A stretch of DNA of 64,000 nt from an uncultured Sulfitobacter sp. (lineage in GTDB: Bacteria; Pseudomonadota; Alphaproteobacteria; Rhodobacterales; Rhodobacteraceae): NCBI GenBank assembly GCA_913060815.1, contig CAJXSZ010000004.1:62001-126000 (forward strand), given 5' to 3'. The notes beneath the pieces are model-generated. The model was not told the DNA's origin. It ran no database searches and saw only the letters and a list, made by a program, of their open reading frames with translations. The position numbers and the translations under genes were made by a program. Shown here piece by piece: positions 63 through 10,305 of this stretch (its first letter is position 1; each line of letters starts with the position of its first letter).

Positions 63-1439
63 TTAAGTAGGGGCTGGAGAAGACGGCAAAACACGGATTA
101 ACTGGACGTAGAATTCGATACCGCCCCTTTTACGATAGTCCATGCCGAGGAGCCCGCCATGCGCCTCGATGATCTGTTTATAGACGGCTAGCCTTGAACT
201 TTTTCCCTCCTTGGGGCGGGGCGCCACGCTTTGCAGCTGCCTTGAAATAGTGAATTCGGGGGTGCGGTATGCGGTGTCCATCTCTTCCCCTTGGTCCGAG
301 ATATTAATGCGTACATGCTCGGGCGTTGCAGCCACACACATGCTCACCTCACTCCCTCGAGTAGACAAGCTGACGGCATGGTACAGAAGCTCCGTAATCA
401 TCTGCTCGAGCTGCCTGGGATCAGCGCGCACGATGATATCGGTATCAACAGGCAGCATCTTTAGCGTACTGCCGTGCGCGCGTGCGGAGGATCGGGCGTT
501 CGTCACAGCAGCGGCAACTAGACGCGCTAATTGTACGTCGCGAAAGTCGAATGTCATCTCGTCGATCTTGAATGCGTGAGAGTCCAGCAGCTCGTCAACT
601 TGCGTCGCGAGACGCGCCGTATTGCGCTGCGCCGTTGTGAGCGCCTGCATCGCAACTTTGGGCAGCGGACCAGACGCGCTTGCCATACCAAGGGAGGTAC
701 GAATGGACGTAAGCGGTGCGCGGACTTCATTTCTGACAATCGAGAGAGCGTGGGCTGTGTCATCCAGTGCTCTGACGGCGCGCGCTTTCTCGGAGCGCAG
801 CTGTGCCAGTTGGCATCGATTATCACGATCATACCGTCGATACATATTGGAGGCGTCGACAACAAAATAGAATGCAAACAAGCTTGTAAAAAAGACGAGC
901 CACGCATTCTGGTCAGACAGACCTTCTGAAGAGAGGACATCCGCAAAAGGGATCGCCAGAGCCGTCATGCCATAGAAGAACAATTGGATCACCAGCGCCG
1001 ACAATAGCTGATGTGCATTCGTGGCCGTAAACACAGCAGCCGCCAATATATAGAGCGTCGCGATAAAGCTGTTTCCACCAGATGCAGCAAATGCAATGGA
1101 CAGCGCGAAAAAGCTGATCATCAAAGAACTGTAGAGCACCCCCATATGAATGCGGCGCAAAACAATCCTGATCGAAGGGCGGTTATCGTCGCGCAAATTG
1201 CGGGCTTGCCGAGATGTGCGCCCGTCAAAAGCCTCGGAGATGATGATTAGGATGGTTGAGACGGCGACGTATTCCGACCCGACGTAAAAAGCCAGAAGCA
1301 CCAATGCTACGGCGAAAAACAACAGCCGTCTCGCCCCCAGCGAAGTTTGTCGCTCGGCATAGGCGTGCAGGCGGGCTGCCGCTGCATCGTGCTCGGCGCA
1401 GGCCCGTGCCAGAATGCGGGGTCTGAAAAGGATGCTCAT
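63..1439 (-). CDS. Membrane sensor histidine-kinase-like protein with degenerate catalytic motifs
   Basis: 458 aa ORF; several N-terminal hydrophobic segments; DHp/HATPase-like C-terminus (RNEVRAPLTSI, LEQMITELLYHAV, EAHGGLLGM). Confidence 0.75.
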   Translation of the reverse strand: MSILFRPRILARACAEHDAAAARLHAYAERQTSLGARRLLFFAVALVLLAFYVGSEYVAVSTILIIISEAFDGRTSRQARNLRDDNRPSIRIVLRRIHMGVLYSSLMISFFALSIAFAASGGNSFIATLYILAAAVFTATNAHQLLSALVIQLFFYGMTALAIPFADVLSSEGLSDQNAWLVFFTSLFAFYFVVDASNMYRRYDRDNRCQLAQLRSEKARAVRALDDTAHALSIVRNEVRAPLTSIRTSLGMASASGPLPKVAMQALTTAQRNTARLATQVDELLDSHAFKIDEMTFDFRDVQLARLVAAAVTNARSSARAHGSTLKMLPVDTDIIVRADPRQLEQMITELLYHAVSLSTRGSEVSMCVAATPEHVRINISDQGEEMDTAYRTPEFTISRQLQSVAPRPKEGKSSRLAVYKQIIEAHGGLLGMDYRKRGGIEFYVQLIRVLPSSPAPT

Positions 1440-1555: not shown

Positions 1556-1867
1556 TCAGGCGATGCGCTGGATCGCCGTAAAGCTCTCGAAAACAGGTGT
1601 CCCTTCATAAAGCTTTGCCGTCTCTTTCGCGCCTTTATGCGAGCTGCGGAACGCGTCGCTTTTGGTCCAGCCGCGGAATGCGTCCTCGGATGCCCAGACT
1701 GTGTGCGAGGCATAGATGATCTTGCCGTCGATTACGGGACCCTTGAGCATGTGAAACTCGACAAACCCCTCCATCTGTTTGAGGTTGCTGTCGCGGTTCA
1801 GCCAGAGCGCCTCAAAGGCTTCGGCATTATCGGTTGTAACGGTAAAGCGGTTCATGGCGAGGTACAT
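1556..1867 (-). CDS. Antibiotic biosynthesis monooxygenase / heme-degrading monooxygenase-like protein
   Basis: MYLAMNRFTVTTDNAEAFEALWLNRDSNLKQMEGFVEFHMLKG matches small ABM-fold family; start chosen at internal Met rather than ORF start 1969. Confidence 0.75.
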   Translation of the reverse strand: MYLAMNRFTVTTDNAEAFEALWLNRDSNLKQMEGFVEFHMLKGPVIDGKIIYASHTVWASEDAFRGWTKSDAFRSSHKGAKETAKLYEGTPVFESFTAIQRIA

Positions 1868-1940: not shown

Positions 1941-3458
1941 TCATGCCCAATCAAGCAGCCCTCCTGCACGATCTTCTATAAGCAGGCGCGGGACTTTGGC
2001 GGGTTCACATCGGCTGCGCTGTGCCGCATCCAAGGCCAGCTCTGAAAGCTGTGCGAACGTGGAAACATCTATGCCAGCGCGACGCAGGTCGCTCGCGATG
2101 TCAGGGCGGCGCGGATTCACAGCGATGCCCTGATCGGTTACGATGACATCCACGCTTTTGCCGTGCGTAGTAACGCCGCGCGCGTGATCGACCAGCTTGG
2201 CAAAGCCCCCCGCCGTCAGTCCTGTAGTCACAATCGTCAGGGCCGCGCCCTGTGCTGCATCAGGATGCCCGCCCGGCCCGCCGATCAGCCGCCCATCCCC
2301 GCCGATGGTGACGTTAACGTTGAACTGGCTGTCGACCTCGACTGCGCCCAAGATCATCACGCCAAGCCCGTTCACCACCGCATCAGGCATCAACGGACTA
2401 GCGTATTGCGCCGCACTCATTGCCAAGTGATCGGGATTGGTGATCGAAGATTGCACCGCCCCACCGTCGAAACACTGCACGTCGTGGATGCGCTCGAACA
2501 GGCCGGCCTGTTGCAACGCTACATGGCTGCCTGTGATTCCACCCGAGAGGAAGCTGCCCCGCACGCCCGCGTGTGCCATAGCGTGCCCGATCACAGTGAC
2601 CGCACTTAGCGAATACCCACCCGCGCCCGTTTGCAAGGAAAGCCCGTCGCGCATCAGGCCCGTTGCAGCGATGACCTGTGCGACCAGATCGCCAATCTGG
2701 CGTGCTTGTGGCGTCTGCGAAGCGAGGGTTGTGTCCGAGGCAATGCCACTCACCTCTCCTGGATTGGGGAATGGGATCACCGCATCGACCTGCTGTGCGG
2801 GGATGTCTGTGTGCGGTATTGTGCCTACCGTGATCTCGTGGCTGCATACAACCGTGCGGCGTGCAAAAGCGGTATCAACCATCGCATAGCCAAGTGGCCC
2901 GCAGGGCAATGCCCCCCCGCGTCCCGTGCAGGCTCCATCAGCCTGCGCCAGAGATGCGCCGACAAAGGCGACGTCGATTTTGAGCTCACCCGTGCTGATC
3001 GCCCGCGCACGGCCACCGTGGCTTTGCAAAAGCGCTGGTCCGCGCAGCGCGCTTGATAACATTGCGTCGGTGACAGCTCCCTTTGCGTAATCCGTGATCA
3101 CATCGCCAATGACGCCGCTGTTGATGTGCGCGGCCAAAGGAGCATGCACGGGAAACAGGGAGCTGGGCGCGATGGTAAGCCCGCGCAACCCGCGCCGCGC
3201 GGCCTCCTCCAGCACAGCGTTCATCAGCTGGTCACCGTTGCGGTAATGGTGGTGGAACGAAAGCACCGCACCATCGCCAATATCGAAGCGGTCGAAGGCC
3301 GCCGACAGATTGGCCAACTGTTTGTCCGACTGATCGGCGCTTGCACGTGGCTGGATAAGGGCGCGCGAGGATACGGGGGCAGGATGCGCCACACCCAATG
3401 GCGTCCGCTGGGGCCAAGCCAAACCCGCGATCCGCGATTGTCTGTTGTCAGTCTGCAT
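1941..3458 (-). CDS. citF: Citrate lyase alpha subunit (citrate CoA-transferase-like)
   Basis: LSFHHHYRNGD motif and full-length CitF-like sequence; start at MQTDNRQ. Confidence 0.8.
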   Translation of the reverse strand: MQTDNRQSRIAGLAWPQRTPLGVAHPAPVSSRALIQPRASADQSDKQLANLSAAFDRFDIGDGAVLSFHHHYRNGDQLMNAVLEEAARRGLRGLTIAPSSLFPVHAPLAAHINSGVIGDVITDYAKGAVTDAMLSSALRGPALLQSHGGRARAISTGELKIDVAFVGASLAQADGACTGRGGALPCGPLGYAMVDTAFARRTVVCSHEITVGTIPHTDIPAQQVDAVIPFPNPGEVSGIASDTTLASQTPQARQIGDLVAQVIAATGLMRDGLSLQTGAGGYSLSAVTVIGHAMAHAGVRGSFLSGGITGSHVALQQAGLFERIHDVQCFDGGAVQSSITNPDHLAMSAAQYASPLMPDAVVNGLGVMILGAVEVDSQFNVNVTIGGDGRLIGGPGGHPDAAQGAALTIVTTGLTAGGFAKLVDHARGVTTHGKSVDVIVTDQGIAVNPRRPDIASDLRRAGIDVSTFAQLSELALDAAQRSRCEPAKVPRLLIEDRAGGLLDWA

Positions 3459-3523
3459 TGCTCCTGCCCGCCCTTGCATCCGCTTGTCGCCCCGCTACCC
3501 TTTGCACAAAGGAGCGCACGCCT

Positions 3524-7541: not shown

Positions 7542-8525
7542 GTGTGCGACATGATCAGCGATTTGAACGACGACCCGATCGACGCGGTCATTACTTGGGT
7601 CGACGGAAAAGACCCCGCACACCGTGCCAAACGCGACCGCTACATGGGGCGATGCGTGGAGAAGCTACACGAGAATGCCAGCAACCCACACCGCTGGGAG
7701 CAGAGCGACGAGATATACTATTGTCTGCACTCCATTCATCACCATGCCCCTTGGATACGCACGATCTGGATCGTGGTGGACGAGGACGCACCCGATCTGG
7801 CGCAACTTTCCCAGACGCTGCGCGACAAAATCCGCATCGCGTTTCACCATGATATTTTTGACGGCCACAACGATGTGCTGCCCACCTTTAATTCCCTCGC
7901 CATCGAGAGCGTGATGTGGCGCATTGACGGTCTGGCCGAGCGGTTCTTGTATTTCAACGATGATGTATTTCTAACAGCACCACTGTTGCCAAGCGATGTT
8001 TTTGACGGTGCGCACCCAGTGTTGCGCGGCGCGTGGGTTGATTATTCAGCGCTGGATGCGGATTGTGAAACGCGTGAAAATCCCGCCTACTTCAACCACT
8101 ACATGCTGATGAATGCCGCGCACCTGTGCGGGGTGGGGGCGAAGCGGCTGTTTGCCTGCGCGCATGTGGTGCATCCTTTGCGGCGCAGTGTGATGGCGGA
8201 TTTGTTCGACAGGCACTCTGATGAATTCCTGCACAACGTAAGGCACCGTTTTCGCCATCTCAGCCAGTTCTCACCGCAGGGCTTGCATACGCAGGCTTGC
8301 ATTGATGCAAAGACCTATCGGTTTTGCGCACGGGGCGATTACCTTCATATTACGAGCGGACAGGGCGCTGGCCTGCCGTCAAGGGACACCCGCGCCCTGC
8401 TGACGGCCGAGGGGTTGGCGAACATAAAAGTTCTCTGTGTGAATGACCTTCCGAAGCTCGAAGCGCTGGTGCCTGATGCGCGTCAGCTGATCCGCGACGC
8501 TGTCGGGATGACATCAACCTTCTAG
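7542..8525 (+). CDS. Stealth family protein (putative sugar-phosphate phosphotransferase)
   Basis: IDAVITWVDGKDP (CR1), DEIYYCLHSIHHHAPWIRTIWIVVDEDAPD (CR2), HVVHPLRRSV; GTG 7542 or ATG 7551 start. Confidence 0.85.
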   Translation: MCDMISDLNDDPIDAVITWVDGKDPAHRAKRDRYMGRCVEKLHENASNPHRWEQSDEIYYCLHSIHHHAPWIRTIWIVVDEDAPDLAQLSQTLRDKIRIAFHHDIFDGHNDVLPTFNSLAIESVMWRIDGLAERFLYFNDDVFLTAPLLPSDVFDGAHPVLRGAWVDYSALDADCETRENPAYFNHYMLMNAAHLCGVGAKRLFACAHVVHPLRRSVMADLFDRHSDEFLHNVRHRFRHLSQFSPQGLHTQACIDAKTYRFCARGDYLHITSGQGAGLPSRDTRALLTAEGLANIKVLCVNDLPKLEALVPDARQLIRDAVGMTSTF

Positions 8526-9196
8526 GTCTTCCCCCCAAGCGGCAAGCGTGCAATGCGGTGGAACATGCCGTCCTCCTCTTCCCCTGCGATGCTCAGGTGG
8601 TCGATGATAAAGGGCTTTGACAGCACGTTCGCAAAATGCGCGACCACCGCAGGGCTTATACGGGCAGCATCCTTGAGCGGCCCCGTCAGCGTGATGTGAA
8701 ACCTGAAGTCTTCCATCACATGCGGATACCCCCAACGCACGAGGTTCGCCTCTTGTGAGGGCGTAAGAGGGCGTTTGCGCCGCTGCGCTAGCTCTTCGCA
8801 GCTTGGAGGCGCACGGAAATGGTCAAGCTGCGCCACGATGGTGCTTGCCAGCGTGTTAAGCGCTGCTGTGTCTCCTTGTGGTGTCAGGGCGAGAAAACTA
8901 CCAATCCAGCTGACCTCCAGACCGCTTAGTTCCACAGGCGCGAAATTTTCGGTAATCTGACCAGCCGCTAGTTCCAGCGCTTCAATCGTGGCGCCATCCC
9001 GCAAAACCATTGGCGGTTTTACCGTTGCGTGCAGTCCGTATTTGCGCGGGCGTTTGGTGATGCGGGACAGGTCGATACCGTCAAGCAGTGGATGCGCTAC
9101 AGCTTGCCCCGCCAGAACATCCCATCCCAACCAAGCTGACCCGACCCGGCCAAGCTCCCCCTCGGGCGTCACGTAGATCGCATAGCGTCGATACAT
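8522..9196 (-). CDS. DUF1045 family 2H-phosphoesterase-like protein (usually phosphonate-associated)
   Basis: YGLHATVKPP and FRFHITLTGPL, the two HxT/S motifs of the 2H superfamily; MYRRYAIYVTPEG N-terminus. Confidence 0.75.
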   Translation of the reverse strand: MYRRYAIYVTPEGELGRVGSAWLGWDVLAGQAVAHPLLDGIDLSRITKRPRKYGLHATVKPPMVLRDGATIEALELAAGQITENFAPVELSGLEVSWIGSFLALTPQGDTAALNTLASTIVAQLDHFRAPPSCEELAQRRKRPLTPSQEANLVRWGYPHVMEDFRFHITLTGPLKDAARISPAVVAHFANVLSKPFIIDHLSIAGEEEDGMFHRIARLPLGGKT

Positions 9197-9534
9197 CAGG
9201 CGGCAGAAAACTCATCATAGGCCTCGAGCGCTTTGGCGCTGTAGGCAATCGAAGGGCCGCCCCCCATATAGGCGACCATTTCCAGCGCCTCGCACAGCTC
9301 TTCGCGTGTGGTGCCAAGGCGGACCAATGATTTGACGTGAAAGCCGATGCAGCTGTCGCAGCGGGTCGAGATGCCGATGCCAAGAGCGATAAATTCTTTC
9401 GTCTTCTCGTCGAGCGCGCCGTTTTTCTTGGCCGCTTTGCCCATTGTGTTGAAACCCTCGAACGTGGCAGGGGCCTCTTTTTGGAAGGTGCCGATACGGC
9501 CCATCGTCTCGTTCAGAAAATTGGTCCAGCTCAT
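9196..9534 (-). CDS. Carboxymuconolactone decarboxylase (AhpD-like) family protein
   Basis: TRCDSCIGFHVKSLVRLGTTREELCEAL, the CxxC...H AhpD motif. Confidence 0.85.
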   Translation of the reverse strand: MSWTNFLNETMGRIGTFQKEAPATFEGFNTMGKAAKKNGALDEKTKEFIALGIGISTRCDSCIGFHVKSLVRLGTTREELCEALEMVAYMGGGPSIAYSAKALEAYDEFSAA

Positions 9535-9546
9535 GTGCAGCTCCTT

Positions 9547-10305
9547 TTAGCGGCTCTCGTCGGCGCCCATCTTACGTTCCAACCAGCGTACGAAGAAACT
9601 GATGATCAGCACCAGCACGAGGTATTCGAGGATGAGCAGGGTGTAGATTTCGAGCGGGCGGTATTCGGTCACGACCAGCTCGTTTGCGCGGCGTGTCAGT
9701 TCCTGCATCCCGATGACAGAGGCAAAGGCGCTCATCTTTACGATATAGATAAACTGGTTGGCCAAAGGCGGCAGAATGCGGCGGATCGCTTGGGGCAGGA
9801 TCACATAGCGCATGGTTTGGCCGTAGGTGAGCCCGATGGTCTTGGCCGCCTCTGTCTGGCCCCGCGCAATGCTTTGTATGCCTGAGCGGTAGATTTCTGC
9901 GGTAAAGGCGGAGTCGGAGATTGCGAGCGTGATCACCGCGCCCCAGAACGCATCAATACGCACGGTGATGCCCATGGACTGCAAAACCACGGGGAGGCCG
10001 TAGAAGACCCAGAACAGCATCGGCAAAAGCGGGATTGCACGGATAAATTCGATATAGATGCGACTGGGCAGGCTGATCCAGCGGTTCGTAGACATTCCGG
10101 GCAAGGCGACCAGCATCCCGATCACCATCGACAGTGCGGCGGCAATCACCGACAGCAGGATCGTCGCCCCGAACCCGTCGAGCAGGAAAGTAATGTTGTT
10201 CCAGCCCTGAGTGGTCGTGGGGTCGATCACATACCAACCCCAGTTTCCGCCGCTGCCGCAACCAGCGAGGAGCGTCAGCGCAGCCAAAGCGAAAAGGTTT
10301 TTCAT
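9547..10305 (-). CDS. Polar amino-acid ABC transporter permease
   Basis: SIARGQTEAAKTIGLTYGQTMRYVILPQAIRRILPPLANQ (EAA loop); start MKNLF. Confidence 0.85.
   Translation of the reverse strand: MKNLFALAALTLLAGCGSGGNWGWYVIDPTTTQGWNNITFLLDGFGATILLSVIAAALSMVIGMLVALPGMSTNRWISLPSRIYIEFIRAIPLLPMLFWVFYGLPVVLQSMGITVRIDAFWGAVITLAISDSAFTAEIYRSGIQSIARGQTEAAKTIGLTYGQTMRYVILPQAIRRILPPLANQFIYIVKMSAFASVIGMQELTRRANELVVTEYRPLEIYTLLILEYLVLVLIISFFVRWLERKMGADESR

Follow-up and report, generated by a model that had tools for sequence, protein, structure and literature searches.

A putative pseudo-histidine kinase beside an Hpt protein lacking its phospho-histidine at a reduced phosphorelay locus of an uncultured Sulfitobacter

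The kinase gene and its catalytic motifs

The window analyzed here is a stretch of 64,000 nucleotides from an uncultured Sulfitobacter sp. (bases 62001-126000 of contig C4). Close to its left end, an open reading frame of 458 aa on the minus strand (63..1439) encodes a pseudo-histidine kinase composed of a predicted helical membrane sensor (residues 23-205; 825..1373, minus strand), a linker and DHp region (residues 206-298; 546..824, minus strand), and a CA domain (residues 299-448; 96..545, minus strand). Domain searches against Pfam placed HATPase_c above its cut-off (34.9 vs. 26.4 bits) and HisKA just under its own (25.7 vs. 26.9 bits). The syntenic ortholog in a related genome, G016, scores 101 for HATPase_c and 65.8 for HisKA. 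The window protein is homologous from end to end with an intact kinase (47%). A search for full-length intact paralogs of the kinase in its own genome returned none, the remaining matches being confined to the kinase core, and no RNA structure or terminator was found downstream of the gene.

The degenerate motifs singled out in the first-pass annotation are all present. The acceptor region reads RNEVRAPL, with Asn237 (AAT; 729..731, minus strand) at the position of the phospho-acceptor His. The N box reads ITELLYHAV (372..398, minus strand), where relatives have TNLLSNAAK, and the G2 box reads GKSSRL (189..206, minus strand; longer stretch GKSSRLAVYKQ), where relatives have GTGLGL. The D or G1 box, ISDQGEEMD (276..302, minus strand), corresponds to DQGxG or DEGxG in relatives; it is degenerate as claimed, but the first Asp and the first Gly (D-Q-G) are still there and the second Gly is lost.

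Alignment with 29 homologues drawn from its own genus and family indicates that these changes are exceptional. All 29 carry His in the acceptor column (SHELRTPL or NHELRTPL), together with an NLLSNA-like N box, a DxGxG-like G1 box, and a G[TS]GLG[LM] G2 box, and the window kinase is broken at all four sites. Homologues from Litoreibacter albidus and Pseudosulfitobacter pseudonitzschiae are also intact, so that His is found in 31 of 31 full-length homologues. The loss is therefore confined to one lineage and is no trait of the family; a family-wide loss of His is ruled out. Among the homologues examined the pseudokinase state occurs in one species only: no other species has Asn at the acceptor site, and His is present in every one of the nearer full-length homologues within the genus. 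A survey of 397 genomes of the family recovered no nearer kinase homologue at E <= 1e-70, and a scan of the genome collection with the kinase protein alone gave no matches. Over its full length, the profile of the intact orthologs matches the annotated frame (frame 0) alone, so no hidden frameshift lies behind the motif loss and a compensated frameshift in the kinase core is ruled out.

Catalytic kinases of the HisKA/HATPase_c type require an acceptor His and the N, G1, and G2 boxes, and the window protein has neither in working form. Several independent catalytic motifs kept in every homologue examined are gone, while the histidine kinase fold appears to be kept and the reading frame is open, as in a pseudokinase. 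An AlphaFold model built from a shallow 15-row alignment (mean pLDDT 76, pTM 0.42) has a helical membrane part and a core that matches many histidine kinase cores in the PDB, with DivL (4q20) one of the best matches. Residues 393-414, in the ATP-lid region, fall below a pLDDT of 50. The model makes a kinase fold plausible and says nothing on function.

A reduced relay and an Hpt protein without its histidine

The gene upstream of the kinase, which the first-pass annotation suggested inspecting for a partner kinase or regulator, encodes an HmuQ-type heme-degrading monooxygenase (1556..1867, minus strand; Pfam ABM; NCBIfam HmuQ, 141.6 bits at a cut-off of 130). This gene and the CitF-like (citrate lyase alpha) gene beyond it (1941..3479, minus strand) serve as synteny markers, and a Stealth-type gene (CR1-CR3; 7542-8525, plus strand) is syntenic in G016 and G056. 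In the window genome and in G016, G042, G055, and G041, hmuQ lies directly upstream of, and co-directional with, either the kinase or an Hpt gene.

The window genome and G016 have a common gene order: aminotransferase, DUF1007, NicO, an interval of variable content, kinase, hmuQ, citF, dehydratase, and Stealth. Between NicO and the kinase, G016 has genes for a CHASE/PAS histidine kinase of 986 aa, a second kinase of 424 aa, a CheY-like receiver of 121 aa, an Hpt protein of 116 aa, a response regulator of 336 aa, and a GntR regulator, which together with the kinase constitute a phosphorelay. This interval is shrunken in the window genome, where the PAS-containing kinase, the second kinase, the CheY-like receiver, and the GntR regulator are absent from the locus. 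The survivors are the kinase, an Hpt gene outside the window, and a response-regulator stub of 35 codons, MRFLATDDIPVVAEVLSRSLVPACVSSCTSAGRDA, located just left of the window (C4:61802-61909; L031:11802-11909; minus strand). The stub opens with MRFLATDDIPVVAEVLSRSL..., as the response regulator does, and its end overlaps the beginning of the Hpt gene (ATGA, within a GCATGA junction that relatives share); because both the regulator start and the Hpt junction are preserved, the response regulator was shortened by an internal deletion. Within the interval, a search for remnants of the GntR regulator or of the other kinases found nothing significant, the response-regulator start alone being left.

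Related genomes contain other stages of reduction. The syntenic response regulator of G056 has an internal TAG (L038, around 8960-9940), while the CheY, the Hpt with its His, and the sensor kinase are kept, and this locus is an intermediate stage of decay. In G018 the whole module is gone, and an unrelated ORF of 217 aa, HAD-like by eye, is found there. The surroundings of the window kinase thus explain its loss of motifs, the relay around it having been dismantled. They also make the proposed scaffolding role unlikely as far as kinases or regulators of this locus are concerned, since the local partners are gone. Elsewhere in the genome, contig C3 carries a paralogous module that is complete, comprising a response regulator, an Hpt, a CheY, and two kinases, with its phospho-sites present.

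The surviving Hpt-family gene (C4:61419-61805; L031:11419-11805; minus strand) lies ~200-580 bases to the left of window base 1 and has Asn in place of the phospho-His. Its sequence there is LNQTSRTAISIG, where five orthologs have LH[QL]IAGTAGTxG; the acceptor stretch is LNQTSRTAIS, compared with LHQIAGTAGT-like sequences in the five relatives. The Pfam Hpt profile does not match this protein, which is homologous to the Hpt of G016 (62%) and conserves the C-terminal motif YADLA[IV]CPGxI[IV]W. In the aligned Hpt set, His is present in all members except those of the window genome (L063) and G042 (L069).

The same gene stands alone between NicO and hmuQ in three further genomes, in each case without His: G042 (Asn), G055 (Ala), and G041 (Ala). 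The relay's kinase and response regulator are both missing at this locus in all three. G042 and G055 carry a second Hpt, bearing His, next to a response regulator; G041 has one Hpt only and no match to the relay's response-regulator family. Twenty of 20 further Hpts bear His, nearly all of them adjoining a response regulator of the same family, and His is likewise retained in G321, a member of another genus in which the module is present. A strict rule that a solitary Hpt lacks His does not hold, as the solitary-looking Hpts of G034 (contig C8) and G002 have it. Separately, a solitary-looking Hpt of G027 (contig C11; L174, 7634-7981) has Cys at the phospho-His position.

In a tree of the flanking genes, G055 groups beside G016, which bears His, and the window genome branches outside both (supports 0.88 and 0.93); at least the losses of His in the window genome (G000) and in G055 are therefore separate. 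A total of three or four losses is an estimate, as deeper nodes are weakly supported (0.42-0.52). The loss of the active site of this phosphate shuttle in several related species suggests a second, phosphate-free job.

Rates of change and explanations for retention

Sequence change in the window kinase is unevenly distributed. Counting positions otherwise invariant among the five closest relatives, it has changed 12 of 42 columns in the sensor (relatives: 2-11), 23 of 52 in the linker and DHp region (relatives: 1-4), and 28 of 59 in the CA domain (relatives: 0-5). The core has thus eroded faster than the membrane sensor, with a core-to-sensor ratio of relative branch length of 2.3 (bootstrap 1.6-3.4), although the sensor branch is itself 1.8x the median of the relatives. 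There are no stops or frameshifts, and the indels are in frame. When branch lengths were anchored on neighboring genes, a two-phase codon model gave a neutral-equivalent excess per site of 0.27 for the core and 0.09 for the sensor (2dlnL of 9.3 for the difference), and with free branch lengths for six taxa the excess was alike in the two parts (sensor 0.26, core 0.31); these estimates, like the omega values below, are rough because synonymous sites are saturated.

For the Hpt, omega was 0.18 on the four His-less branches and 0.09 on the others, and a value of 1 was rejected (2dlnL of 38.9), although this by itself is no proof of present selection because the branches also span time before the loss. 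The C-terminal 29 residues (GxYADLA[IV]CPGxI[IV]W...) share 61% identity across the four His-less proteins, compared with 32-38% elsewhere, and the window Hpt has changed one of 18 otherwise invariant columns in the C-terminal part, against seven of 18 around the His. The reading frames of the His-less Hpts are open.

A real pseudokinase beside a pseudo-Hpt is the best reading of these data. The case for a retained role without catalysis is fairly good for the Hpt and only moderate for the kinase, for which the evidence favors retention, short of proof. The proposal of such a role in the first-pass annotation is plausible for the kinase from its sequence: the gene has acquired no stop or frameshift despite its divergence, and its sensor has changed less than its core. 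Weighing on the other side, the state is seen in one species only, the partner genes are deleted, and the kinase is evolving fast.

The main rival is recent decay, in which the kinase would be a young pseudogene that has drifted without constraint since its partners were lost and has by chance not yet acquired a stop, with selection acting on the Hpt alone or on neither gene. We give this explanation an appreciable weight, though clearly less than an even chance. It accounts for the deletion of the partners, the stub left of the response regulator, erosion across the whole kinase core, structural positions included, and the somewhat accelerated sensor; the TAG in the syntenic response regulator of G056 and the missing module of G018 indicate that the locus does decay in relatives. 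It fits less well with the difference in rate between sensor and core, with indels that are in frame, and with the open frame itself, as the chance that a gene this long remains free of stops under neutrality, 0.06 for a neutral length of 0.1, falls to 0.0035 at 0.2, ~0.001 at 0.25, and 0.0002 at 0.3.

An unlikely alternative is that both proteins inhibit or tune the intact module on contig C3 as dominant-negative or modulating partners, the pseudo-Hpt competing with the true Hpt, as AHP6 does in plants, and the pseudokinase sequestering components. That module has its phospho-sites, G042 and G055 each carry a second, His-bearing Hpt beside a response regulator, and Arabidopsis AHP6, in which Asn also stands for His, is considered a competitor of functional HPts (PMC7402358). 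Against this, G041 retains a His-less Hpt and has neither a match to the response-regulator family nor a second Hpt, so competition is not the general reason for keeping the protein. Finally, an unconventional active kinase phosphorylated on another residue is very improbable: the first-pass annotation had pointed to the His of TAHALS, a few residues upstream of the Asn, but Asn237 occupies the invariant His column, relatives have Glu or Ala where TAHALS has its His (KTEFLS, KTAFLS), and the N, G1, and G2 boxes needed to bind ATP are broken too.

Proposed roles and known systems

Returning to the reading of a pseudokinase beside a pseudo-Hpt, the sequence shows that the relay partners are missing from the locus, that the response regulator is reduced to a stub, and that the kinase and Hpt persist as open genes, each with Asn at the phospho-His position; we propose that both are out of phosphotransfer and retained for binding. 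Judged from sequence, the balance tips slightly toward the kinase being the remnant of a relay dismantled in one lineage, with both phospho-His-less proteins kept for binding. The Hpt probably acts through its conserved C-terminal motif, because three more species keep His-less copies. Its family may, at somewhat better than even odds, have a second function in this alphaproteobacterial genus, one that depends on this motif and not on phosphate; the Hpt would then have been kept after relay loss while its His was lost repeatedly (Asn, Asn, Ala, Ala), with the pseudokinase kept alongside it here. The kinase would probably be a membrane sensor or scaffold without catalysis, like RocA, DivL, or the ChrS pseudokinase, and its candidate partners are the neighboring Hpt and the paralogous module of contig C3.

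Pseudokinases occurring singly are already known, as is a pseudo-HPt from a plant. Among open-licence papers we found no report of a bacterial pseudo-Hpt, and precedent elsewhere is possible. A relay whose kinase and Hpt are both without phospho-His, with other parts conserved and the Hpt loss recurrent in relatives, is a natural experiment that sets Hpt phosphotransfer apart from the protein's other functions. The short motif and the set of orthologs with and without His provide the means to look for a second Hpt function.

The system resembles several known ones in part. RocA of group A Streptococcus has a non-catalytic core, does not need its own phosphorylation, and acts through the CovS kinase (PMC7028121); like the window protein it joins a membrane sensor (six predicted helices in RocA) to a non-catalytic kinase core, but it has a dispensable His, a known partner, and no dead Hpt (PMC7028121). 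DivL of Caulobacter is likewise an alphaproteobacterial pseudo-histidine kinase with its His replaced, by Tyr (PMC4211667). DivL, however, is conserved throughout the alphaproteobacteria, has a PAS-rich N-terminus, and retains its N, G1, F, and G2 boxes, whereas the window kinase has a membrane sensor, Asn at the H site, and broken boxes, and is found in one species. The ChrS pseudokinase of Corynebacterium glutamicum is a non-catalytic kinase with a role via a paralogous system and heterodimers (PMC9491836); it differs in having arisen from a frameshift in the CA domain during laboratory evolution (PMC9491836), and a heterodimer model is weakened here by the strongly eroded linker and DHp region, which holds the dimer helix. 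The Hpt of the window genome, finally, shares with the pseudo-HPt AHP6 of Arabidopsis the replacement of the phospho-His by Asn (PMC7402358), but AHP6 is a plant inhibitor of a running relay, whereas the protein described here is bacterial, its relay is gone, and it has a conserved C-terminal motif.
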